64,000 nt of DNA from Kineococcus endophyticus (GTDB lineage Bacteria; Actinomycetota; Actinomycetes; Actinomycetales; Kineococcaceae), in assembly GCF_040796495.1 (NCBI RefSeq), contig NZ_JBFNQN010000008.1, positions 1-64,000 of the forward strand. The letters run 5' to 3'. The notes under the pieces are model-generated. The model searched no databases and was not told the DNA's origin. It was given only the letters and a program-made list of their open reading frames with translations. A program made the translations under genes and the position numbers. This document shows, piece after piece, positions 31,485-50,660 of the stretch (position 1 is the stretch's first letter; every line of letters starts with the position of its first letter).

Positions 31485-31523
31485 CGCTCAAGTCACGAGG
31501 GGGAACGTGCCGAGAAGGGGTGT

Positions 31524-32420
31524 GTGACCGCAGACGTTGCCACCGCCACCCGGGAGCTCCCCATGGTCGAGCTCAGCGCAGCCCAGCGCAGCTCGCTCGT
31601 CGAGCAGCACCTGCCGCTCGTCGGCTACATCACCTCCGAGTTCATCGGTCGTCTGCCCTCGCACGTGAGCCGCGACGACCTGACCTCGGCCGGCCTCATG
31701 GCGCTCTTCCAGGCCTCGCGGGCCTACGACCCGACCACGGGCGTCCCGTTCAACCGCTACGCCAACACCCGCATCCGCGGCGCCATCCTCGACGACCTGC
31801 GCGGCCAGGACTGGGCCTCGCGCGGCGTCCGCAGCCGCCAGCGCAAGCTGTCGCAGACCGAGGACCAGCTGACCACCCAGCTCGGCCGCACGCCGACGTC
31901 CGCCGAGCTCGCCTCCACCCTCGGGGTGTCCGAGAAGGAGCTCGCCGAGACCCGCGACGAGGCGCAGCGTTCCATGGTGCTGTCGATGCAGGGTTTCACC
32001 GCCGAGGGCGCCTCCCTCGACGACCACCTGCCGACCCACACGCCCGGCCCCGAGCAGGAGCTCCTGCACCGCGAGCGCCTGGGCTACCTGCGCTCGGCCG
32101 TCGACGTCCTGCCCGAGCGGCTGCGGCACGTCGTGGAGGGCTACTTCCTGCAGGAGCGCCCCATGGCCGAGCTGGCCGAGGAGCTCGGCGTCTCGGAGTC
32201 CCGCATCTCGCAGATGCGCGCCGAGGCCCTCGTCCTGCTGCGCGACGGCATGAACACGCACCTGTCGCCCGAGATGGTGCTGAAGTCCTCCGGGTCCGGC
32301 GCGGCCGTGAAGCGCAAGGAGGCGTACTACGCCGCCGTCGGGACGCAGAGCGACTTCCGCAGCCGGCTGGCGCTGAGCAGCTTCGCGCAGTTTTCCGTGC
32401 CGGTGGCGCGGACGGCCTGA
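31524..32420 (+). CDS. fliA: FliA/WhiG-family RNA polymerase sigma factor
   Basis: The 298-residue sigma-70 family protein has region 2 (LVGYITSEFIGRLPSHVSRDDLTSAGLMALFQASRAYDP, then FNRYANTRIRGAILDDLRGQDWASR), region 3 (QLTTQLGRTPTSAELASTLGVSEKEL) and region 4 with an HTH (MAELAEELGVSESRISQMRAEAL). It lacks region 1.1, as in sigma-28. A C-terminal tail of about 60 residues after region 4 (SSGSGAAVKRKEAYYAAVG...) is longer than in E. coli FliA. It would recognise the four YTCA-N16/17-KCCGAT promoters here. GTG 31524 has AAGGGG close upstream; ATG 31563 is an alternative. Confidence 0.93.
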   Translation: MTADVATATRELPMVELSAAQRSSLVEQHLPLVGYITSEFIGRLPSHVSRDDLTSAGLMALFQASRAYDPTTGVPFNRYANTRIRGAILDDLRGQDWASRGVRSRQRKLSQTEDQLTTQLGRTPTSAELASTLGVSEKELAETRDEAQRSMVLSMQGFTAEGASLDDHLPTHTPGPEQELLHRERLGYLRSAVDVLPERLRHVVEGYFLQERPMAELAEELGVSESRISQMRAEALVLLRDGMNTHLSPEMVLKSSGSGAAVKRKEAYYAAVGTQSDFRSRLALSSFAQFSVPVARTA

Positions 32421-33189: not shown

Positions 33190-34250
33190 GCGGTGCCCAC
33201 CTCCTGAGTGGACTCGGTGCTCCTACGGGCTTTTCGACCACACTTGTCGCCACCTACTTCAAGAGCTGGTGAAGGCCTGGACGTCGGCGCCTGCGGGGTC
33301 CAGATGCGCGGTGACGCTCGGCAACTTGGCCTGGGCCGGATCCAGCGGCCGGTCGAACTGGGTACGCAGCGACGCCGCGTCGGGCTGGTCGCACACGCTG
33401 TGCAGCAGCGACTTCATCGAACGGCAGCTCGTCTTGGGCGTCACCGCCACCAAGTTCGCCGCGTAGTGCGTGCGGCACCGCTGCCAGGACGCGCCGAGCA
33501 GGGTGGCGCCGATCGCAGCGACCAGGCCAGCCTGGGCGTCGGAGGTCACCAGTCGCACCCCGGACAGGCCGCGGGCGGTGAGGTCGCGGAAGAATCCTAA
33601 CCAGCCGGTCCCGTGCTCAGCGGAGGAGACCAGCAGGCCCAGGATGTACCGGTGCCCATCGGCCTTCACCCCGACAGCCGACAGGGCGTGGACGTTGGCG
33701 ACCACATGACGGGGCGGCCGTCCTCGCGAATCTTGACACCAACGAGCCGGCGGCGGCGAAGGTGTAACGGCCGCAGGAAGGGGGCGGGTGCGGGACGCCT
33801 CGACCTGAGAAGCCAGGTCATTCGCCATCTCACTGACCTGCAACTTCGAAAACCTCGTGATGCCGAGGGTCTCGACCAGCTTCTCCATCCTGCTGGTGGA
33901 CACCCCCAGCAGATGGGCGGTGGGTACGACGATGGTCAGGGCGCGTTCGGCGCGGCGGGCGCCCCTCCAGCAGCCAGTCGTGGAAGTAGGAGCTGAGCGC
34001 AGCTTGGGGATGGCCCCGCAGTGTCCGCGTCGATCGTCCCGGGGAGGGTGTCGAGGGGTCGGTGGCGGTAGCCGTTGCGGGTGTTGACCCGCTCCGGGCT
34101 GGAGGCTCCGTACTCCGCGCCGCAGGCGGCGTCGGCGGACATGAGGGTGTCGATGAAGGCGCGCAGCATGATGTGCATCAGGTCCGGGCTGGCTTGAGCG
34201 AGGTCCTCGTCCAGGAGATGGGCAGGGTCCATCATGGGGTTTATGGTCAT
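33190..34250 (-). pseudogene. IS256-family transposase remnant
   Basis: The N-terminus MTINPMMDPAHLLDEDLAQA...RVNTRNGYRHRPLDTLPGTID starts at ATG 34250, then shifts frame into AIPKLRSAPTSTTGCW...RAERALTIVVPTAHLLGVSTSRMEKLVETLG, ISKLQ-type sequence and VKADGHRYILGLLVSSAEHGTGWLGFFRDLTARGLSGVRLVTSDAQAGLVAAIGATL. After QAFTSS the frame meets TGA, reads SRWRQVWSKSP (the usual WRQIWSNNP region), and meets TAG. Family motifs identify a mutator-type IS256 transposase, but one or more frameshifts, at least two stops and a missing C-terminus make it inactive. Confidence 0.85.
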
Positions 34251-34370
34251 CGCGGTGTCCTCTTCGACTTGAGGGGGAACTCACTTCGAAGCATCACGCG
34301 GTGGCCGCCTTCTACGTGTCAGCCGCGCCCGTCGGCGGGGTGGTCGCACACCACTCTGCTGGACTGCACT
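33190..34370 (-). mobile_element. IS256-type insertion sequence remnant
   Basis: Upstream of the transposase the sequence TCCAGCAGAGTGGTGTGCGA (minus, about 34345-34366) and a downstream GAAGGCGGCCACCGCGTGAT look like the left end of actinobacterial IS256 elements. No matching right end was found beyond 33190, so the element is truncated. It borders the glycosyltransferase island. Confidence 0.55.
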
Positions 34371-34714: not shown

Positions 34715-35407
34715 TCACAGCGCGACGAGGTGCGGTTCGGGGTCCAGGATGCTGTGGTATTGCTCGAGCCAGCCTAGTGCTCCGTCAGGATCCGCCTCCA
34801 TGTAGCGGTCGAACTTGGCCTTGCGATCCTGCTCGCGGCTCCACCCCATGTGCTTGATGGTGAGGTCCGTGAACCCGACCACACCCTCCGAGCCGAGGGG
34901 GAAGGACCCGCAGTGGTGAGTGGCGTCCCTCCACCTGTTCGGTGCCGTGGGATCGAAGCGAACCGCTCGGACCCACTGGCGGTGATGCGCCGTCCAGAAC
35001 TTGTCGTCGCGGTAGTGCGTGTCCGACCACATGTCGCACAACCGGAAGCTCATGCTGTCCACTCCAGGCAAGAACTTCGTCGTGAGGATGAGGCGGAGTC
35101 GTTCGACGTGGTCCTCGGGCAAGAGTTCGTCGGCGTCGAACCCCAAGATCCAGTCTCCTCGTCTCGCCATCCTCGTGGCCGTGTCCCACAGCCGCTGACG
35201 CTGGAAGCGCTCGTCGCGCGCGAACATGCTGACCGCGCTCTCGAGCACCTCGTCGGCGTACTGGTAGGCGATCTCACGCGTCGTGTCCGTGCTGGCGTCA
35301 TCGAGCACCACGACGTGGTCGCTGAGGAAGCGAGCCTGTCGCAGCGCCTCGTGGAGCCATCGATCGGCTTCGTTCTTGACCAGCATCATGCTGATCACGT
35401 TCACCAT
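34715..35407 (-). CDS. GT2-family glycosyltransferase
   Basis: The 230-residue GT-A protein opens MVNVISMMLVKNEADRWLHEAL, with the nucleotide-sugar segment VVLDDASTDTTREIA and the DXD motif in WILGFDADELLPEDHV. It resembles glycosyltransferases that act on surface glycans or proteins. The ATG at 35405-35407 has an AAGG site at moderate distance. It is the last of four minus-strand genes, 40 bases after the epimerase gene, so it is probably in the same operon. DNA here looks less GC-biased than the flanks. Confidence 0.8.
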   Translation of the reverse strand: MVNVISMMLVKNEADRWLHEALRQARFLSDHVVVLDDASTDTTREIAYQYADEVLESAVSMFARDERFQRQRLWDTATRMARRGDWILGFDADELLPEDHVERLRLILTTKFLPGVDSMSFRLCDMWSDTHYRDDKFWTAHHRQWVRAVRFDPTAPNRWRDATHHCGSFPLGSEGVVGFTDLTIKHMGWSREQDRKAKFDRYMEADPDGALGWLEQYHSILDPEPHLVAL

Positions 35408-35447
35408 CAGATCGCCCTTCGAGCGGATCGGGGATTCTTGTCGCAAG

Positions 35448-36608
35448 TCACGATGCCCCCACCGTGACCCCCACGGACGGGCGTCCTGCCGCGGCCGGAA
35501 AGTGCTCAAGGATCTCGCGCGCCGCGTACTCGGCGGCCCGGCCGTCGCCGTAAGGGTTGGCCACGGCGCTCATGCGTCGGTAGTCGTCGTCTTCGAGGAG
35601 GAGTTCTCGCACCGCGCCCACGATCGCCTCGCGTCCTGTCCCGATGAGGCGGGCGCATCCGGCGTCGACGGCCTCGGGACGCTCGGTGCTGGCACGCATC
35701 ACCAGGACCGGTTTGCCGAGGCTGGGGGCCTCCTCCTGGAGTCCTCCTGAATCCGTCAGGACCACCGACGCGTCTCGCAGGGCGGCGACCATGTCGCGGT
35801 AGGGGAGCGGCGGGACCACCTGCACGTTATCGAGGCCGTCCATCGCCGCGAGTACTCGGCCCTTGAGCTCAGGGTTGGGGTGGGCGGCCCAGAGGAACCG
35901 TTGCCTTCGGTGGGTCGTCGCGAGGTGACGAACCGCGTCGAGGATGCCCTGGAAGGCGGCCCCCCACGATTCTCTGCGGTGGGCGGTCACGAGGACGTGG
36001 CCACGGCGGCCTCCGTCGATCATACTGCCGGCGTCCTCGGTGGCGGGGGCCAGTCCGGCCACCGTTGTGAGCAGGGCGTCGATGACGGTGTTGCCGGTGA
36101 CCGCGATCCGCTCAGCGGCGACGCCCTCCCGCACCAGAGCGGCCCGGGCCCGCTCTGTCGGAGCGAGGTGCAAGTCGGCGATCTGGCCGATCAGCCGACG
36201 ATTTCCTTCCTCAGGAAACGGGTTGTGCAGGTCCGCTGTGCGAAGACCGGCTTCTAGGTGGACGACTGGAACCCTGGCGTTGAAGGCAGCAAGAGCCGCT
36301 GCGAGAGCCGACGTGGTGTCGCCTTGGACCACAACGGCGGCGACGTCGGCCTGATTGAGGTGCTCTGTAGTCCCTGCTTCGACGTCGGCGAGGAGACGGC
36401 CGAGGGTTCGCCCATCCGGCCACGGGCCGAGGGTCACCTCAGGCGAGAGACCGAACGAGGTCAGGACGTCGCTCACCACGGTCGTGTGCTGGCCCGTGCT
36501 GAGGACGCGCACGGCAGTGCCGCTCGCGCGCAGTCGTGCGATGAGCGGGGCCATCTTGATGGCCTCCGGCCTCGTTCCGACGACGGCCACGACGTACTGG
36601 TCAGACAC
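35448..36608 (-). CDS. wecB: UDP-N-acetylglucosamine 2-epimerase (non-hydrolysing)
   Basis: The 386-residue enzyme interconverts UDP-GlcNAc and UDP-ManNAc, providing ManNAc-type sugars. Signature segments are VVGTRPEAIKMAPLI, VQGDTTSALAAALAA, VVHLEAGLRTADLHNPFPEEGNRRLIGQIADLHLAPT, VTAHRRESWG and TDSGGLQEEAPSLGKPVLVMRASTERPEAV. Length is normal. The GTG start overlaps the preceding glycosyltransferase gene by eight bases. In this context its product is likely a donor precursor for sugars added by the neighbouring transferases. Confidence 0.93.
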   Translation of the reverse strand: MSDQYVVAVVGTRPEAIKMAPLIARLRASGTAVRVLSTGQHTTVVSDVLTSFGLSPEVTLGPWPDGRTLGRLLADVEAGTTEHLNQADVAAVVVQGDTTSALAAALAAFNARVPVVHLEAGLRTADLHNPFPEEGNRRLIGQIADLHLAPTERARAALVREGVAAERIAVTGNTVIDALLTTVAGLAPATEDAGSMIDGGRRGHVLVTAHRRESWGAAFQGILDAVRHLATTHRRQRFLWAAHPNPELKGRVLAAMDGLDNVQVVPPLPYRDMVAALRDASVVLTDSGGLQEEAPSLGKPVLVMRASTERPEAVDAGCARLIGTGREAIVGAVRELLLEDDDYRRMSAVANPYGDGRAAEYAAREILEHFPAAAGRPSVGVTVGAS

Positions 36609-37422
36609 CGGCGACGACTCCCGCCTCGGCCAGGAAGTGCGGAAGTCGCTGCAGGTCGGACTTGCGGTAGAGGTGCAGGGGAGGTAAATGAGTGTCCGCG
36701 TGGAGCCGAAGCCCCACGGCCATCGCGCGAACGCAGAAGTGCCGGTCCTCTCCGTTCAGGGAGAGGTTCGGGATCTCGGCAAAAGACACACCGCGCATCA
36801 TGGCCTCGCGTGACAACAGGGTGCAGGCCCCGAGGCCTCCGACCTCGTAGACGCCGGGGATGCGCAACACGTCGAGGAACTCCTGCGCGCGACGCGCCTC
36901 CTCGTGGGCCGAGATGATCTCACCTCGGCGCCGGTAGACGATGTCGTAGGAGTCGCGGAGCCACACTTGGGGCCATTCCGGGCTGCCGGGTTGCCAGGAC
37001 GTCCAGAAGACCTCGCTGACGATGTCCTTGCCGAGACTCGCCAGGTGTCCGATCGTGCCGGGGCGGAGGACGATGTCGGAGTCGACGAAGAAGATGTGGT
37101 CGTACCCGCCGTCCCGTGCGTGATCGATCAGCGCGTCCTTGAATTCCGCCACCCGCCAGATGAGGCCGTCCTTCCAGTGGTGGGTGTTCTCGTCCCGGTG
37201 GTACCGCTGGGCAGGCGGGACCTTGACCACGGTGGTGTTGGGATGTTTCGAGGAGAAGTCCGCCAGCAGTTCGGAGGAGCGGGCGTCGTGGTTGTCATCG
37301 ACGAAGGCGTAGTCAACGACGAGTCCGTTCGTCTCCTGCAGGATGAGGTTGTCAAGGAATGCGGCCAGGATCTCGGGATCCTGCTGGACCGGGGATGCTG
37401 TCAAGACCCGGGTCGGCGACAT
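36601..37422 (-). CDS. GT-A-fold glycosyltransferase
   Basis: The 273-residue protein has a long N-terminal nucleotide-sugar domain (RVLTASPVQQDPEILAAFLDNL) with the DXD-like DHIFFVDSDIVLRPGTIGHL, and a C-terminal catalytic part (VGGLGACTLLSREAMMRGVSF, NGEDRHFCVRAMAVGLRLHAD). The pattern recalls the Anp1/MNN9-like transferases but the substrate is unknown. It overlaps the epimerase gene and lies 66 bases downstream of the TPR-glycosyltransferase gene. ATG at 37420-37422. Confidence 0.75.
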   Translation of the reverse strand: MSPTRVLTASPVQQDPEILAAFLDNLILQETNGLVVDYAFVDDNHDARSSELLADFSSKHPNTTVVKVPPAQRYHRDENTHHWKDGLIWRVAEFKDALIDHARDGGYDHIFFVDSDIVLRPGTIGHLASLGKDIVSEVFWTSWQPGSPEWPQVWLRDSYDIVYRRRGEIISAHEEARRAQEFLDVLRIPGVYEVGGLGACTLLSREAMMRGVSFAEIPNLSLNGEDRHFCVRAMAVGLRLHADTHLPPLHLYRKSDLQRLPHFLAEAGVVAGV

Positions 37423-37488
37423 CGGGGTGCTCCTAGGGCTGGTTCAGGACGGGGGCGAGCGTGCGGCGCGCGTGTCGGGCTGCGAGGT

Positions 37489-39024
37489 TCAGACCGGAGC
37501 GAGGACCGAGGCGACGTTCGGTGCGTAGCGAGAGAGCTGCGCCGTCAGCGGAATGCGCTCGTGCTGCGGGACGACGGCGAGCATGGAATCAAGGGCGGGC
37601 CGCACGTCCTCCTCGCCCACCTCGACGAGGACGCTCGCACACAGGATTCGGGTGATGGTGTCCCGCTCGCCTCGGGCGAGGGCGATGCGGCGCAGGGGGC
37701 AGAGCTCCACCACGCCGGCTTCGCGGCACCGCAGGGACCACTCCAGAGCCTTCTCGAAGCTGAGGGTCGGCCACTGCTTGGACACCGCGACGAGGACCGC
37801 CGTGCGGGAGCGCTCCGTGCTCCAGAGGTGCTCGAAGAACACGTCGGTAGCGTCAGCCCGGCACGTCTGCAATTGTGCGAGGTAGGGCTTGAGCAGGTTG
37901 GCCGGCAGTGCCTCCGCCAGGCGGCGCACACCGTTGTGCGCCTCGCTGGACAGGAGGAGGGCGCTGACCGGGGAGATGTTCGAGATCCCGGTGGCAACGT
38001 GCTCGAGCAGCATCTCGGCCGCTTCCCGCCCCCGACCCTGACGAGCGATGCTGGTGATGAGTTCGTCGGTGTGGGCGCGGGCACGGAACTGGGCCTGGCT
38101 GAACATCCGGTCGTCCTCGAGGGAGCGGATCAGACGCTCAGCCTCGGCCCAGTCGCCGGCGGCCATGCTGACGTGTGCTCGGAGTGCGTTGCAGGCGTGC
38201 GGGCTCTCCCCCCAGGCCGCCATGCGGTCGATCCAGTCGCGCGCCACATCGAGCTGCAGTTGGTTGAGAGCGCTGAGAACAACAGTCTGACCCGACATGA
38301 TGCCGTAGGACGCGGGGATCGTGTCCAGGTCGAGCTCCGCGAACGTGCTGAGGGCCTTGGCGTGGTTCCCTGCGAGTGCAGCTGACCTACCGACGTTCAC
38401 GATGAGCTCGTCGATGTTGCGGGCACCTCGCGCGCGCGCCTTCTCGAGCGCGCTCTCCGCCAGCCTGAGGTTGCGCTCGCCCTTGTTCCGTTCGTTCAGG
38501 TGCATCGCTGTGTAGCCATAGTGTCGCAGGTGGATCGCCTCGTTGAGGACGTGCGGGGCCTCCTGCCAACGACCGACGATCGCTTCGTGGAGGGCGCCCT
38601 CCCAACGACAGTGCGACCTCCTCAGGACACGCGCGACCATCGCTCTGTGCTCTGCGCCGCCGTCGGTGAAGGCGCTGGAGACGACCTCGACGGCGAAGCT
38701 CTGCGCCGAGGCGAGGTGCAGGGACCTGCGCCAGGCTCGAGGATCCCCTTGCACGACCTCGTCGGCGTCTACGCTCAGTACCCATTCGCCCCGGCAGTGC
38801 TCCAACGCTCGGTTGCGGGCGGCTCCGAAGTCGTCGTCCCAGTACCCCTCGATCACGATCGCGCCGTATTCACGCGCGATCTCCACCGTCCGGTCGCTGC
38901 TGCCGGTGTCGTAGACGACCACCTCGTCCGCGAACGCGATCACTGCCGTCAACGAGGCAGCGAGGAACTCTTCCTCGTCCTTCACGATGTAGCAAGCGCT
39001 GATGAAGACCGGTTCGTCGCTCAT
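37489..39024 (-). CDS. GT2 glycosyltransferase with C-terminal TPR-like helices
   Basis: The 511-residue protein has an N-terminal GT2 domain (about residues 1-210): ISACYIVKDEEEFLAASLTAV, EVVVYDTGSSDRTVEIAREYG, WDDDFGAARNRALEHCRGEWVLSVDADEV. The rest is a run of Ala/Leu-rich helices (ALAGNHAKALSTFAELDLD...) like TPR repeats. This layout occurs in protein-glycosylating transferases. Most important, a FliA-type promoter lies about 50 bases upstream, so this and the three genes after it should be expressed with the flagellum. It is paralogous to the GT2 at 46.8 kb. Confidence 0.85.
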   Translation of the reverse strand: MSDEPVFISACYIVKDEEEFLAASLTAVIAFADEVVVYDTGSSDRTVEIAREYGAIVIEGYWDDDFGAARNRALEHCRGEWVLSVDADEVVQGDPRAWRRSLHLASAQSFAVEVVSSAFTDGGAEHRAMVARVLRRSHCRWEGALHEAIVGRWQEAPHVLNEAIHLRHYGYTAMHLNERNKGERNLRLAESALEKARARGARNIDELIVNVGRSAALAGNHAKALSTFAELDLDTIPASYGIMSGQTVVLSALNQLQLDVARDWIDRMAAWGESPHACNALRAHVSMAAGDWAEAERLIRSLEDDRMFSQAQFRARAHTDELITSIARQGRGREAAEMLLEHVATGISNISPVSALLLSSEAHNGVRRLAEALPANLLKPYLAQLQTCRADATDVFFEHLWSTERSRTAVLVAVSKQWPTLSFEKALEWSLRCREAGVVELCPLRRIALARGERDTITRILCASVLVEVGEEDVRPALDSMLAVVPQHERIPLTAQLSRYAPNVASVLAPV

Positions 39025-39074
39025 GTGTGCCCTCTCGCAAGGTGCCGCGGCACCACCACCCGTTCAGCCCATCC

Positions 39075-39101
39075 ATCGGCAGCCGGTCGACCCGACCTGA
39101 G
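39075..39101 (-). promoter_or_regulatory. FliA-type promoter of the glycosyltransferase island
   Basis: On the minus strand CTCA (39098-39101) is followed after 17 bases by GCCGAT (39075-39080) and GGA. The match is as good as at flgN and fliS. The first gene of the island starts about 50 bases downstream. Confidence 0.7.
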
Positions 39102-39387: not shown

Positions 39388-39413
39388 TTCAGGTCGCGGT
39401 CGCTGGCTCCGAT
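39388..39413 (+). promoter_or_regulatory. FliA-type promoter of fliC
   Basis: TTCA (39388-39391), 16 bases, TCCGAT (39408-39413), then GGAGT. The block TTCAGG...CCGATGGAGT is shared base for base with the fliS promoter. The leader to the fliC ATG is about 90 bases. Confidence 0.75.
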
Positions 39414-39507
39414 GGAGTCAGTGGCTGGCCCGCGAGGGCAGGCCAGGCCGGACCACGGATGGACCGGTAACCCCCACATCGACCCCACTCACGGAGGAAT
39501 GAACATC

Positions 39508-40671
39508 ATGGGTCTTCGCGTCAACAACAACATCGCGGCTCTGAACAGCTACCGGAACCTGCAGGCGACGGACAAGCAGCTCAACTCCTCCTTGGAGAAG
39601 TTGTCCTCCGGTCTGCGGATCAACAAGGCTGCTGACGACGCTGCCGGCCTGGTGATCTCCGAGGGTCTGCGTTCGCAGATCGGCGGTCTCACCGTTGCGG
39701 CCCGCAACGCCCAGGACGGCGTCAACGTCGCCCAGACCGCGGACGGCGCGCTGAGCACCTCCACGACCATCCTGCAGCGCATGCGTGACCTGGCTGTCCA
39801 GTCGGCCAACGACACCAACGACACCACGTCCCGCGCGGCCATCCAGAAGGAGATCACCTCCCTCTCGGCCGAGCTCGACCGCATCTCGGACAAGTCCTCC
39901 TTCAACGGTGTCAACCTGCTCGACGGCACCTTCGCGGGCAAGGTCTTCCAGGTCGGCGCGTTCAACGGCGACACGATCAGCTTTGACGTCAAGTCCGGTG
40001 CCTCTGCGGCGTCGGCCGTCGTCGCGGCCACCGAGACCTTCACGTCGACCGGTGCCTTCGACAACGCGGCCGTCAGCGCGGCCACGTCGATCTCGATCGG
40101 CGGCAACACGGTCAGCTTCGCCGTCAGCTCGTCGGCTGCTTCCATCGTTGCGGCGATCAACGCCGACCCCACGGTGGGTGCCGCGTGGAACGCCACGACG
40201 AATGCTGCTGGGTCCCTCATCCTGACCTCCAAGGTGGCTGGCAACGTCACCGACGCTGCGGTCAGCTTCGGTGGCGCGACCTTCGCTGGCACCGAGGTTC
40301 AGGGTGCGGTTGCCTCCGCCGCCGTCAAGGCCGACTCCTTCGGCTCCGGTGGTCTTGGTCTCGGCACGCTCAACCTGTCCACCCAGTCGGGTGCGGCGTC
40401 GGCGATCGCGACGATCGACACCGCCCTGAAGACGGTCTCCTCGGCTCGCGCCTCCATCGGTGCGCTCCAGAACCGCTTCGAGCACGTCATCAACTCCGTC
40501 AACGTCGCGGTCGAGAACCTGACCGCGTCGGAGTCGGCCATCCGCGACACCGACATGGCCAAGGAGATGACGAAGTTCACCCGCAGCCAGATCCTCTCGC
40601 AGGCTGGTACGAGCATGCTGGCGCAGGCGAACTCCGCCTCGCAGAACGTCCTCACGCTGCTGCGCGGCTGA
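39508..40671 (+). CDS. fliC: Flagellin
   Basis: The 387-residue filament subunit has the conserved N-terminal D0/D1 (GLRVNNNIAALNSYRNLQATDKQLNSSLEKLSSGLRINKAADDAAGL) and C-terminal D1/D0 (QNRFEHVINSVNVAVENLTASESAIRDTDMAKEMTKFTRSQILSQAGTSMLAQAN). The middle (about residues 150-300) is Ala/Ser/Thr-rich, with many possible O-glycosylation sites and no cysteine. ATG 39508 is favoured over ATG 39499 because GGAGGA lies directly before the latter and ten bases before the former. Codon use is strongly biased, as expected for high expression. A FliA-type promoter precedes it and a terminator follows. Confidence 0.96.
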   Translation: MGLRVNNNIAALNSYRNLQATDKQLNSSLEKLSSGLRINKAADDAAGLVISEGLRSQIGGLTVAARNAQDGVNVAQTADGALSTSTTILQRMRDLAVQSANDTNDTTSRAAIQKEITSLSAELDRISDKSSFNGVNLLDGTFAGKVFQVGAFNGDTISFDVKSGASAASAVVAATETFTSTGAFDNAAVSAATSISIGGNTVSFAVSSSAASIVAAINADPTVGAAWNATTNAAGSLILTSKVAGNVTDAAVSFGGATFAGTEVQGAVASAAVKADSFGSGGLGLGTLNLSTQSGAASAIATIDTALKTVSSARASIGALQNRFEHVINSVNVAVENLTASESAIRDTDMAKEMTKFTRSQILSQAGTSMLAQANSASQNVLTLLRG

Positions 40672-43211: not shown

Positions 43212-46200
43212 ATGTCCCCGTCCCGCCGTTCGCGTCGTCATGCCGCCGCCGTCGGCACGCTGGCCCTCGCCCTCGTTCTGGCCCCGCTGCCGTCGACGTG
43301 GGGGATCGGACCGCAAGCGGCCGTGGCCGCGGTCAGCTCGAACCAGACGGCGCCCTCGGGCGTCCAGGCCGACGCGACGGCGACCGGCGTCTACGTCCAG
43401 TGGACGGCCAAGACCGACGGACCCTCCGGCTACCAGGTCCAGTACGACACCAGCCTCATCGGTCTGGGACTCGGGTCCACGATCAAGGACGTCGCCGGCG
43501 GCGCCACGACGTCGACGTTCATCAACGGCAGTTTCCTGAACTCCTTCGCCGTGCGGGTTCGGGCGGTCTACGGCTCCGGTGTCCTCAAGACGTATTCGGA
43601 CTGGTCCGGGGCGGTGTCGGCGACGCCGAACCTCAACGGCAGTACCCCGGCACGGCCTGCGGGCCTGACGGCGACCCCCGGGCAGGACAGCGTCGTCCTG
43701 GCCTGGAACCCGCCGCCCGCGGACAGCCGGACGGCCGTGAAGGTCTACCGGAACGGGACCCAGGTGGCGACCGTCGCGGTCCCCACGACGACGTGGACCG
43801 ACACCACCGGAGTCCTGGGGACCCAGTACACGTACCACCTCGTCGCCGTGGGGTCGCAGCCGCAGTACGTGTCCGCGAACTCCGACAGCGTGGTGGCGGG
43901 TCCCTACGACCGGATCCCGCCGGCCGCGCCCGCCGGGCTGGCCGCGGTGGCCGGTGACGCGACCGCCACCCTGTCGTGGACGGCGGGGACGGAGTCCGAC
44001 CTCGACCACTACGAGGTCACTCGCGGGGGAACGGTCACGACCGTCCCGCGCGCAACCCCGTCCGTGACCTTCACCGGGCTCACCAACGGTCTCGCCCACA
44101 CCTGGTCGGTCACCGCGGTCGACCGGTGGGGCAACGTCTCCGCGACGAGCAGCGTGTCCGCCACGCCCCGGGACACCACCCCGCCGGACGTCCCCGCGGG
44201 CCTGTCCGTGAGTCCGGGGGACGCCGCGCTCACCGTCACCTGGAACGCTTCCGCCGCCGCGGACACCGCCGGCTACCGCCTCTACGTCGACGGCGTCGCC
44301 CGCCCGGTCACGACCGCCCGGACGGCGCAGCTCACGGGGCTGGTCAACGGCCGTTCGTACTCGGTGTCCGTCGCAGCGGTCGACCTGGTGGGCAACGAGT
44401 CCGCCCGCAGCCAGACCGTCGCGGGCACCCCGCGCGACCTCACTCCGCCGGGCGCCCCCGCAGGGCTGGCCGCGGTGGCGGGGGACGGGCAGGTCGCCCT
44501 GTCCTGGACGGCGAACACCGAACCCGACCTCGCCTCCTACCGGGTCGTGGACGCGGCCGGTGGGGTCCTGGCCACCGTTCCCGCCCCGGGCAGGACGGCC
44601 GTCGTGACCGGTCTGGTGAACGGGACGACGCAGTCCTTCCGGGTGATCGCCGTCGACACCGCCGGGAACCCCTCCGCCCCCAGCACGGCCGTCAGCGCCA
44701 CGCCGCGCGACCTCACCCCGCCGGGAGCACCGACGGGTCTGGTGGCGACTCCCGGCGACGGGAGCGCGACGCTGGGCTGGGCCATCAACCCGGAGGCCGA
44801 CGTCGCCCGCTACGACGTCCTCGACGGCGCCGGCGCCGTGGTGGCCTCGGTGGCTCACCCCGCCACCGGTGTGGTCGTCGGCGGCCTGGTGAACGGCTCG
44901 GCGTCGACGTTCCGCCTCGTCGCCGTCGACCGCGCGGGGAACACGTCGGCTGCCAGCCAGGCCGTGTCGGTGACGCCTCGCGACACCACGCCCCCGACCG
45001 CACCCTCCGGCGTCGCCGCCACCGCCGGCGACGCCACCGCCGTGGTGACGTGGACGGCCTCGGCCAGCCCCGACGTCACCCGGTACGAGGTCGTCGACCA
45101 GACGGGTTCCGTCCGCGCCACCGCACCCGCCGGCGCGACGGGCACGACCGTGACCGGCCTGCTCAACGGCACCACCTACACCTTCTCCGTCGTCGCCGTG
45201 GACGCGGCGGGCAACCGGTCCCCGGCCGGGTCGGCCGCTCCGGTGTCCCCGCAGGCACCGGCGCTGGCGGCCCCCACGGGGCTGGCGGTGACGGGGCAGG
45301 ACGCGTCGGGGACCGTCGGCTGGACCGCGGTGGCGGGCGCGGCCTCCTACCAGGTGCTGCTGGACGGGGCGGTGTCCGCCAGCGTGACGGGGACCTCGGC
45401 GGCCCTGACCGGTCTGGTCAACGGCCGCACCTACGCGGTGACGGTGCGCGCCGTCGCCGCGGGCGGGCAGCCCGGCACCCTCTCGTCCTCGGTGTCCCTC
45501 ACACCGCGGGCGGCCGCGCCCGCACCCACCGCGCCCCCGGTCAGCGGGTCGGGTTCGGCCGGCGTGTCCACCACGCGCGACGGACGGTTCAGCCTCGTCG
45601 GCACCGCGGCCCAGCTCGAGCCGTCGGACACGAACTCGCTGTTCGAGCTGTACCTGCGCGACTCGGTGGCCGGCACCGTGACCCGGCTCGACCCCTCGGC
45701 CGCCGGGACCGACCTCGGCGCCAGCCAGACGGCCATCAGCGCCGACGGCCGCTTCGTCGTCGTCGTGACGTCCGCGGCCAAGGTCGCCGCCGACACCAAC
45801 AAGCTGCCGGACGTGTACCGGTTCGACCGGTGGACCTCGACGTGGGAACTGGTCTCCGTCCCGACCTCCGGGAAGGTCGCGACGGTGGCGGGCACCGAGT
45901 TGCAGTCCCAGACGCGCGTCTACAGCCAGGCGCCGGCTGTGGCGGCCAGCGAAGACGGCAGGTTCGTCTTCTTCTACTCGGCCAGGACGGACCTCGTGCC
46001 CGACGACACCAACGGGACCGTCGACCTCTTCCGCAAGGACATGACCAGCGGCGTGGTCGTCCGCGTCTCGACGACCACGACCGGTGGCCAGCTCGGCGCC
46101 GGTGCGACCGGCCCGGCGCTGGCCGTGACGCCGGACGGTCGGTTCGCCGTGTTCCCCTCTTCGGTGCAGAACATGGCCGTGCTGTGGCGCAAGGACCTCC

Positions 46201-46778
46201 AGACCGGAGCCCTCGACGTCGTCTCCGGGCGTGGCCAGTGGGGGAGCCTCAGTGCGGCCTACCCGGTCAGCAACGACTCGCGCGACACCTCCGTCAGCGA
46301 CGACGGCCGGTTCGTGGCCTTCAGCTCGAGCACGACGGCACTGACCCCCAACGCCGCCGAGTACCTCGTGTACCGGCGCGACATGACCGTCGCGGGCCAG
46401 TTCAGCCGGGTCGGGATCCAGACGACGACGTCCCGCTGGGAGCACGGCGCGCAGCTGGACCCGACCGGCCGGTGGGTGTTCTTCGCGACCACGGCGAAGG
46501 TGGGTGCGGACACGGACAACCGGACCGACTGGTACCGGACCGACGCGCAGAACCCCGGTGCGCCGGCCGTCATGGTCACGTCCCAGGCCGACGGGACGCC
46601 GACCTCCCGGCGGCTCACCACCCAGGAGTCCACTGCCGAGTACGGCGTCGTGCACGTCCTGTCGGCCGACTCCGTCCTCGTGACGACCATGCAGTCCCTC
46701 GTGCCGGCGGACACCAACGGCGTCGTCGACACCTACAGCAAGAACCTCACGACCGGCTCCGTCGTCTCCCGGATGTGA
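43212..46778 (+). CDS. Large secreted fibronectin type III / beta-propeller protein
   Basis: The 1188-residue protein has a basic N-terminus and hydrophobic signal peptide (RRHAAAVGTLALALVLAPLP) ending near residue 40. About eight FN3 modules follow (about residues 45-780), each with a PP-x-P-x-GL start (PAAPAGLAAVAGDATATLSW, PPGAPTGLVATPGDGSATLGW) and a GLVNGxxYxxxVxAVDxAGN end. The last 400 residues are PD40/TolB-like propeller repeats (SADGRFVVVVTSAAKVAADTNKLPDVYRFD). No sortase motif or C-terminal anchor is seen, so it is probably released or wall-bound. Its site beside flagellar genes suggests a surface or motility-linked role, which is not shown. Confidence 0.85.
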   Translation: MSPSRRSRRHAAAVGTLALALVLAPLPSTWGIGPQAAVAAVSSNQTAPSGVQADATATGVYVQWTAKTDGPSGYQVQYDTSLIGLGLGSTIKDVAGGATTSTFINGSFLNSFAVRVRAVYGSGVLKTYSDWSGAVSATPNLNGSTPARPAGLTATPGQDSVVLAWNPPPADSRTAVKVYRNGTQVATVAVPTTTWTDTTGVLGTQYTYHLVAVGSQPQYVSANSDSVVAGPYDRIPPAAPAGLAAVAGDATATLSWTAGTESDLDHYEVTRGGTVTTVPRATPSVTFTGLTNGLAHTWSVTAVDRWGNVSATSSVSATPRDTTPPDVPAGLSVSPGDAALTVTWNASAAADTAGYRLYVDGVARPVTTARTAQLTGLVNGRSYSVSVAAVDLVGNESARSQTVAGTPRDLTPPGAPAGLAAVAGDGQVALSWTANTEPDLASYRVVDAAGGVLATVPAPGRTAVVTGLVNGTTQSFRVIAVDTAGNPSAPSTAVSATPRDLTPPGAPTGLVATPGDGSATLGWAINPEADVARYDVLDGAGAVVASVAHPATGVVVGGLVNGSASTFRLVAVDRAGNTSAASQAVSVTPRDTTPPTAPSGVAATAGDATAVVTWTASASPDVTRYEVVDQTGSVRATAPAGATGTTVTGLLNGTTYTFSVVAVDAAGNRSPAGSAAPVSPQAPALAAPTGLAVTGQDASGTVGWTAVAGAASYQVLLDGAVSASVTGTSAALTGLVNGRTYAVTVRAVAAGGQPGTLSSSVSLTPRAAAPAPTAPPVSGSGSAGVSTTRDGRFSLVGTAAQLEPSDTNSLFELYLRDSVAGTVTRLDPSAAGTDLGASQTAISADGRFVVVVTSAAKVAADTNKLPDVYRFDRWTSTWELVSVPTSGKVATVAGTELQSQTRVYSQAPAVAASEDGRFVFFYSARTDLVPDDTNGTVDLFRKDMTSGVVVRVSTTTTGGQLGAGATGPALAVTPDGRFAVFPSSVQNMAVLWRKDLQTGALDVVSGRGQWGSLSAAYPVSNDSRDTSVSDDGRFVAFSSSTTALTPNAAEYLVYRRDMTVAGQFSRVGIQTTTSRWEHGAQLDPTGRWVFFATTAKVGADTDNRTDWYRTDAQNPGAPAVMVTSQADGTPTSRRLTTQESTAEYGVVHVLSADSVLVTTMQSLVPADTNGVVDTYSKNLTTGSVVSRM

Positions 46779-46804: not shown

Positions 46805-47800
46805 GTGCAGCTCAGCGCGTGCCTCATCGTCCGCGACGCCGCCGACACGCTCGGGCCCTGCCTGGACGCGTTGGTCGGCGTCGTGGACGAGGTCGTCGTC
46901 CTCGACACCGGTTCGGTCGACGGCACGTGGGAGCTGCTGCGGGGGCGACCCGGTGTCCGGTCGTCGCAGGCTCCGTGGACCGACGACTTCGCCGCCGCCC
47001 GGAACACGGTCCTCGCCGCCGCGCGGGGGGAGTGGGTCCTCAGCGTGGACGCCGACGAGGTCCTCGTCGCCGGCGGAGGTGCGCTGCGCCGCAGTCTGTC
47101 CCACGAACCCGGGAGGACGCTGGCCGTCTGCGTGCGCAACCTCGGGGCGGACGGGGGACGGGACTACGAGTTCTCCGCGGTGCGGTTGTTCCGGCGTGAG
47201 GGGGCGGTCTGGAACGGCCGGGTGCACGAGCAGGTCGGCCACCCCGCGCACCGCGACGAAGCGCCCGGGGAACTGCCGCGCGACGTCGCACGGCTGGACC
47301 ACCGGGGGTACGCCGACGAGGGCGCGCGCCGCCGCAAGGGCGAACGCAACCTCCGGCTGGCAGTCGGGGAGTTCGAGCAGCTGCGCACCCGGCCCGGGGC
47401 CACCGCCGAGCAGCTCGCCGGTGCCGCGCTCGACCTGGGCAGGTCGGCGCTCGGTGCGGGCGACCGTCAGCGGGCCGTGGACGCCTTCGAGGTGGTGCGC
47501 GAGCTGGTCGCGTCCGGTCCGTCGTGGTGCCAGGCGACCGACTACCTCGCCCGTGTCCTGCTGGGGGCCGGGGAGGCCGGACTGGGCATCGTGCTGGCCG
47601 ACCAGCTCGTCCTAGCGGGCGTCGACCCCCGGTACTGCCGGTGGTTGCGGGCGCAGGGCCTGGCGCAGCAGGGTCGGACGCGTGACGCTCTGGCCGAACT
47701 CGACGGGCTGACGACGATCGTCGACACGGCGGGCCGGCGCCACGATCCGGTGGCCCTCGACGTCCTGCGCCGGTTGTGCCGGGAGGCCGCGACGGGCTGA
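46805..47800 (+). CDS. GT2 glycosyltransferase with helical C-terminus
   Basis: The 331-residue protein begins VQLSACLIVRDAADTLGPCLDALVG, continues EVVVLDTGSVDGTWELL, WTDDFAAARNTVLAAARGEWVLSVDADEV (DXD intact) and RREGAVWNGRVHEQVGHPAH. The second half is a TPR-like helical region. It is a shorter paralogue of the transferase at 37.5 kb and has the same GEWVLSVDADEV block. It likely modifies a surface or flagellar protein. GTG 46805 follows TAGCGT. Confidence 0.85.
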   Translation: MQLSACLIVRDAADTLGPCLDALVGVVDEVVVLDTGSVDGTWELLRGRPGVRSSQAPWTDDFAAARNTVLAAARGEWVLSVDADEVLVAGGGALRRSLSHEPGRTLAVCVRNLGADGGRDYEFSAVRLFRREGAVWNGRVHEQVGHPAHRDEAPGELPRDVARLDHRGYADEGARRRKGERNLRLAVGEFEQLRTRPGATAEQLAGAALDLGRSALGAGDRQRAVDAFEVVRELVASGPSWCQATDYLARVLLGAGEAGLGIVLADQLVLAGVDPRYCRWLRAQGLAQQGRTRDALAELDGLTTIVDTAGRRHDPVALDVLRRLCREAATG

Positions 47801-50111: not shown

Positions 50112-50660
50112 ATGCCGACCACCCGCACCACGCTCGCCGCGTGCCTCGTGCTGCAGGGCACCACCGACACCGGTGCCCTCGCACCCGCGCTCGAGCAGGA
50201 CCTGCGCGGTCTCGTGGACGTCGCCGACGAGGTCGTCGTCTACGACACCGCCGACCACATCGCCCCCGGCAGCCCCGCCTTCGCGGCCACGCTGCACCCC
50301 GCCGTCACGGTCGTCTCGGGCTTCTGGGCCGACGACCGCGAGCGCGCCCAGGAGGCGGCGCTGGCCCACGTCGGGTCCGACTGGGCGCTGTGCGTCCTCG
50401 CCGGTGAGCGGGTCACGGCCTCCACCGAGGAGCTGCGCGACCTGCTGCACCGCGCCACCGACGTCCCCGCCATGTCCGTCCGGGTCGACGACGTCGTCCG
50501 CGGCACCCACCGCTCGGCGCGGCTGCTGCACAAGGCCGCCTCGGGCACGCGCCGCACCGGCGACGTCCCCGAGGTGCCGAGCGCGCTGCTGACCGTCCGC
50601 CAGCCCGTCGCCACCACCGCCAGCGTCCCGCGGCAGCGCGGAGTCTTCGACCGGGTCTGA
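50112..50660 (+). CDS. Degenerate GT2-like protein, 182 aa
   Basis: The product aligns with the first domain of the GT2 proteins at 37.5 and 46.8 kb: LAACLVLQGTTDTGALAPAL, DEVVVYDTADHIAPGSPAF, VVSGFWADDRERAQEAALAHVGSDWALCVLAGERV. The nucleotide-sugar TGS-x-D segment has become TADHIA and the catalytic DXD block (VDADEV) has become VLAGERV, so it is unlikely to be an active transferase. It may bind sugar or a partner enzyme. ATG 50112 has GGGAG upstream. A strong hairpin terminator follows. Confidence 0.75.
   Translation: MPTTRTTLAACLVLQGTTDTGALAPALEQDLRGLVDVADEVVVYDTADHIAPGSPAFAATLHPAVTVVSGFWADDRERAQEAALAHVGSDWALCVLAGERVTASTEELRDLLHRATDVPAMSVRVDDVVRGTHRSARLLHKAASGTRRTGDVPEVPSALLTVRQPVATTASVPRQRGVFDRV

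Follow-up and report, generated by a model that had tools for sequence, protein, structure and literature searches.

A putative GmaR-type flagellin O-glycosylation island with species-specific partner genes in the flagellar locus of Kineococcus endophyticus

The flagellar locus of Kineococcus endophyticus carries, between the sigma factor gene fliA and the flagellin gene fliC, an island of four minus-strand genes spanning 34715-39024. We interpret this island, with a probability of roughly 0.8, as a flagellin O-glycosylation cluster of the GmaR type, expressed with the filament and combining a lead enzyme with species-specific partners; acceptor, sugar and linkage are inferred. The island lies in a 64,000-nucleotide stretch (positions 1 to 64,000 of contig NZ_JBFNQN010000008.1; the window) of a genome of about 5.04 Mb. 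Flagellin O-glycosylation had been proposed in a first-pass annotation of this DNA, and it is supported by homology to GmaR, co-occurrence with flagellin, adjacency to fliC repeated in several families and a held-out promoter test. Open reading frame (ORF) listing combined with Pfam and NCBIfam scans also confirmed the four glycosylation-type genes between fliA and fliC and the identity of the epimerase among them. The island and its flagellar setting comprise the following features (GT2, glycosyltransferase family 2; TPR, tetratricopeptide repeat):

37489-39024, minus strand: GT2-TPR protein, GmaR-like, 511 residues, predicted initiating flagellin O-glycosyltransferase (Pfam GT2 E 4.6e-17, residues 12-94); the lead gene
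36601-37422, minus strand: GT-A type glycosyltransferase sharing 48% identity with the N-terminal half of a 516-residue Priestia plasmid protein
35448-36608, minus strand: non-hydrolysing UDP-N-acetylglucosamine (UDP-GlcNAc) 2-epimerase WecB, predicted maker of UDP-N-acetylmannosamine (UDP-ManNAc) (Epimerase_2 E 1.1e-97; NCBIfam wecB 377 bits, cut-off 210)
34715-35509, minus strand: GT2 glycosyltransferase, start probably at 35407 (Pfam GT2 E 2.4e-12), with 33-36% identity to the C-terminal half of that Priestia protein
39073-39100, minus strand: FliA-type promoter of the island, TCAGG-N16-CCGATGG (motif and held-out matrix)
39389-39415, plus strand: FliA-type promoter of fliC, divergent from the island promoter
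39508-40671, plus strand: flagellin FliC, presumed acceptor, 387 residues, no cysteine
31524-32420, plus strand: FliA sigma factor (longest ORF from 31428)

The lead protein is closest to GmaR. In a PDB profile search built on nine homologues, a 204-residue chain named GmaR ranks first (E 2.6e-41), followed by SunS and then by another GT2 chain of the SunS kind, and GmaR is again the top match when the protein is searched as a single sequence (E 6.7e-25); the organism of this chain is absent from both search outputs. The catalytic DAD motif (D86, A87, D88) is invariant in the 9 aligned homologues, and the GT2-TPR enzymes of the flagellar loci of the family (Kineococcaceae; 12 genomes, including this one) share 34-65% identity with the lead protein. 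Its predicted model (mean predicted local distance difference test score 85.6; predicted template modelling score 0.67) shows a GT-A domain, then helical hairpins through to the end. By sequence hidden Markov model the TPR match is weak (TPR_4, E 0.025), though the structural model has predicted helical repeats. Searched against the PDB with Foldseek, the model most resembles SunS and ThuS (E 3.9e-13 and 1.2e-12), and designed TPR superhelices appear at ranks 35 and 38. An identity as SunS S-glycosyltransferase is rejected by the NCBIfam score (TIGR04195, 52.7 bits against a cut-off of 350) and, unlike SunS and ThuS, the lead gene neighbours flagellin and not a bacteriocin gene, as far as genes are annotated.

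Listeria GmaR transfers GlcNAc to flagellin, and its authors propose that flagellin is recognised by the TPR region (PMC9638930); as many as six sites on Listeria flagellin carry O-linked GlcNAc (PMC8306008). The Kineococcus protein resembles GmaR of Listeria monocytogenes in its N-terminal GT2 domain, closest to the GmaR chain, in the predicted helical repeats behind it and in its tie to flagellin. It differs in being actinobacterial and 511 residues long (against 637 for GmaR, the MogR antirepressor), in having a FliA-type promoter and in being accompanied by other glycosyltransferases and WecB; an antirepressor region is known for GmaR, whereas none is shown for the Kineococcus protein, no search for MogR having been made. 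Similarly, GT2-TPR flagellin transferases predicted in Clostridium combine both modules among flagellin genes (PMC13317340); in the case of C. sporogenes, maf and a predicted pseudaminic acid accompany them, whereas NeuB and PF01973 each occur in none of the 12 Kineococcaceae genomes. Finally, Caulobacter FlmG (PMC7591256) is a cytoplasmic flagellin O-glycosyltransferase with TPRs for its substrate, as is proposed for the Kineococcus protein, but its N-terminal TPR and C-terminal GT-B are not the arrangement seen here, in which GT-A comes first and the repeats after.

Lead-type genes lie inside the flagellar cluster in nine of the 12 family genomes, including this one. Across the order (297 genomes), 23 genomes match the lead protein (E<=1e-30, the best five candidates per genome being scored). 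Flagellin_N is matched in every one of these 23, whereas only 88 of the 297 genomes have such a match. This association has a hypergeometric probability of 7e-14 by genome and of 8e-5 by genus (9/9 against 36/95), the latter being fairer to kinship. Flagellin_N matches FlgL too, and one genome (G224) has only a single weak match, in the FlgL range (E 3.2e-19); G009, G021, G025 and G042 align to the lead protein only up to residue 363 or less. Outside the family, 132-665 bases separate the match edges of the glycosyltransferase and fliC in 9 of the 13 lead-type genomes; G021, G025 and G042 have the gene at 3.4-10 kb from fliC, and G224 has no fliC-type match. Among named loci, a FliC match lies near the gene in 32 of 38 (18 of 22 actinobacterial loci, 14 of 16 in Selenomonas and kin). 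Five of the six loci without FliC reach a contig end in the examined stretch, and L100 shares its contig with L095, which has fliC.

In Selenomonas and kin (L094, L096, L098, L108 and others of L094-L109), up to four lead-type GT2 matches stand in a row, mostly downstream of fliC. The flagellin of Selenomonas sputigena is reportedly O-glycosylated, which we treat as a lead only and do not use as support.

The good FliA-type promoter noted ahead of the island in the first pass withstood a held-out test. A two-box matrix was built from 12 fliC promoters of other family genomes, the window being left out; in these promoters a spacer separates TCARG from CCGA, and the bases after CCGA are mostly TGA or TGG. 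Of 127,930 positions scored on both strands, the best is 39104 on the minus strand, just upstream of the GT2-TPR gene, at 27.5 bits, against 19.0 for fliC's own promoter; the island promoter has a spacer one base longer than the training promoters, a penalty already included in its score. The same motif recurs in family f8, in which six genomes share the divergent layout of lead-type gene and fliC. TCARG-N16-CCGA is present on the glycosyltransferase strand, within 650 bases upstream of the start of homology, in all five f8 genomes examined (G018, G080, G093, G106 and G119; G145 is the sixth), as in the window. Dinucleotide shuffles yield such a site in 0.3-1.1% of trials per f8 region, although the product of these values is no clean probability because the form of the motif was fixed after viewing the sites. 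Genome-wide, TCARG-N16-CCGATG occurs at 28 sites and the reversed pattern at 0, a contrast we do not use as a test because the reversed pattern differs in dinucleotides. In four of five f8 loci (L066, L068, L069 and L070), an in-frame start codon lies 7 bases past the 28-base site and about 157-161 codons before the GT2 homology; L065 lacks that spacing. This distance suggests that the four lead-type proteins are translated from leaderless transcripts, with a predicted N-terminal extension of about 157-161 residues.

A related motif (TCAAG...CCGA, here CCGAGAA) lies upstream of fliA itself, at 31488-31516 on the plus strand, 36 bases ahead of the start at 31524, and it is found at -35 or -36 in 10 of the 10 family fliA upstream stretches examined, this one included (gene-finder starts). 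Its position suggests a leaderless transcript with a longer spacer and perhaps autoregulation.

The composition of flagellin, taken in the first-pass annotation as an argument for glycosylation (Ser/Thr-rich, no cysteine), carries no weight. Fifteen Kineococcaceae flagellins were measured (the length filter removed two cut pieces from G006, and a contig end truncates the G011 sequence). Cysteine is absent from all 15, and the three genomes that lack the 511-residue gene show no reduced Ser+Thr fraction (0.185-0.217) compared with the other 12 flagellins (0.179-0.241), so that composition is not diagnostic. Glycosylation with a nonulosonic acid (pseudaminic, legionaminic or sialic) is rejected, as NeuB (PF03102) and PF01973 both have 0 matches in the 12 family genomes; for PF01973 (MptE-like), which we take to be Maf, the control matched only in archaea, and power for bacterial Maf is unproven.

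The partner genes differ from the lead gene in their distribution. The GT-A protein has no Pfam match at 1e-3 (PF00535 gives E 0.0024, below its cut-off); the GT-A label first given to it is upheld by weak similarities (procollagen galactosyltransferase, E 4e-5) and by 48% identity to annotated Priestia glycosyltransferases. Searches for relatives were negative in the 11 remaining family genomes (E<=0.001), in a further 295 genomes of the class (E<=1e-20) and in phages or viral contigs. Relatives are present in 10 of 72,556 plasmid records, nine of them from Priestia (about 48% identity). In the two Priestia records opened (pBM500 and pG5.MM8), the GT-A protein and the GT2 protein of 34715-35509 match the two halves of a single gene of 516 codons. 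That gene overlaps by 11 bases a 366-residue GT2 gene, which has TPR matches on pBM500. The order GT2-TPR, GT-A, GT2 is thus colinear in Priestia plasmids and Kineococcus; GT-A and GT2 are fused without WecB in Priestia, whereas Kineococcus has two separate genes with wecB between them. As the GT2-TPR proteins are only distantly alike (about 29% identity over some 200 residues), joint transfer of all three genes is not established. Next to these genes, pBM500 encodes a collagen-repeat protein and pG5.MM8 encodes spore coat proteins; the set may thus be a cassette serving different acceptors. A Paenibacillus neighbourhood that was also inspected carried no annotation.

Seven of the 12 family genomes have a WecB match above the cut-off, and it lies in the flagellar locus only in K. 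endophyticus. A ManNAc-derived sugar, as suggested earlier, is possible, yet would be specific to this genome. Among 19 island-neighbour proteins picked from relatives' loci, 12 match sugar, glycosyl-, methyl- or acyltransferase-type families (DegT aminotransferase, Gfo/Idh dehydrogenases, GNAT, methyltransferases, NTP transferase, GT2 and CDP-glycerol transferase), four match others (DUF707, a DUF559-like protein, DUF3000 and a LuxR regulator) and three match none.

We propose that RNA polymerase carrying FliA would read the island from the divergent promoter facing fliC. The GT2-TPR protein would bind flagellin in the cytoplasm through its predicted helical repeats and move a first sugar to Ser/Thr, most simply from UDP-GlcNAc, as GmaR does. 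The GT-A and GT2 proteins would add further sugars, for one of which WecB may supply UDP-ManNAc. Since relatives keep the first enzyme and vary its partners, each species would have its own glycan.

The locus has these further features:

33259-34284, minus strand: Mutator-family transposase frame separating fliA from the island, perhaps a trace of the way the island changed
43212-46778, plus strand: large protein of Fn3 repeats whose N-terminus looks signal-like by eye, adjoining flagellar genes and the second GT2-TPR gene
46805-47800, plus strand: second, shorter GT2-TPR type protein, best match of that type in 6 of 12 family genomes
50112-50660, plus strand: degenerate GT2-like protein of 182 residues that has lost the DxD motif, present in all 12 family genomes

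Each of the 12 family flagellar loci encodes the degenerate protein. The 11 copies from relatives are 67-86% identical to that of the window, a stronger conservation than among the neighbouring GT2-TPR enzymes (34-65%). A profile of the degenerate protein also detects the GT2 domain of lead enzymes, and its predicted model is GT-A-like. In all 12 copies, DADE is replaced by LAGE, LPGE or LSGE (alignment by eye). Full-strength matches (at least 295 bits) are restricted to those 12 of the 297 order genomes, the next among those listed reaching 59.8 bits (best 11 candidates per genome scored). It is likely a pseudo-glycosyltransferase, inactive and kept for another function. Homologues of the Fn3 protein are found in the flagellar stretches of 3 of the 11 relatives (4 of 12 counting this genome).

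Several observations weigh against a flagellin glycosylation island. Three family genomes (G004, G008 and G009) have flagellin without the 511-residue type (the shorter type alone is present in G009, and neither type in G004 and G008), so the lead gene is not needed for a flagellar locus. The island promoter is not general: when the upstream regions of nine family homologues were scored, G007 reached 12.4 bits and the other eight at most 3.0, which rejects a single promoter common to the lead gene throughout the family, and no FliA-type promoter was found for the homologue in the nearest relative (G003), which is 65% identical and has the same divergent layout. In most low-scoring family loci, the gene stands among same-strand flagellar genes and may be read with these neighbours. 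TPR evidence from sequence is weak and, as the related Priestia set adjoins collagen-like or spore-coat genes, fold alone leaves the acceptor unfixed.

The same Priestia plasmids, on which related GT2-TPR and GT-A/GT2 genes stand beside collagen-like or spore-coat genes, could mean that the enzymes glycosylate not flagellin but another exported protein (FliD or the Fn3-repeat protein) or the zoospore coat, and the Fn3 gene, with its signal-like N-terminus, does adjoin the second GT2-TPR gene. We consider this unlikely, given that the recurrent neighbour across families, and into Selenomonas and kin, is fliC, and that the Fn3 gene occurs in just 4 of the 12 family loci examined. GmaR is bifunctional (PMC9638930 and PMC3150276), a transferase that also regulates flagellar genes, and the lead protein might likewise be chiefly a regulator with transferase activity secondary. 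That is very unlikely in view of its shorter length, the invariance of DAD and the clustering of sugar-type genes with the lead gene in relatives. Least probable of all is an island that makes a cell-surface polysaccharide and lies near flagellar genes by chance: polysaccharide loci commonly encode WecB and GT2 enzymes, a transposase frame adjoins the island, and the 11 remaining family genomes lack a relative of the GT-A gene and have their wecB genes elsewhere than in the flagellar locus, but the FliA-type promoter, the co-occurrence with flagellin and the repeated fliC adjacency of the lead gene argue otherwise, and domain scans identified no polymerase or flippase among the four island genes.

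Flagellin glycosylation by the island could also be part of something wider. As a speculative and rather doubtful extension, a GT2-TPR selector with GT-A/GT2 extenders might form a protein-glycosylation cassette common to Bacillales plasmids, with collagen-like or spore-coat acceptors, and to the Kineococcus flagellar locus, with flagellin as acceptor and a FliA promoter. The fused extender would there correspond to two genes with wecB between them, and the inactive GT2-like protein to a non-catalytic partner or regulator.

Our literature search, which left subscription papers mostly outside, found no description of flagellin glycosylation in actinobacteria, although the genome paper of Actinoplanes missouriensis (PMC3569393) contains the words flagellin and "glycosylat"; nor do the accessible passages of a paper on actinobacterial flagella describe it. 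The island thus provides a testable candidate enzyme in a group where little has been described, and would carry the GmaR type outside Bacillota. How GT2-TPR enzymes choose their acceptors could be learned from the Priestia relatives. Judging from sequence comparison, the lead enzyme type is conserved in actinobacteria, with partner genes differing by species; this suggests a pattern of a constant first enzyme with changing sugar-making partners, as expected for a surface trait under diversifying pressure.

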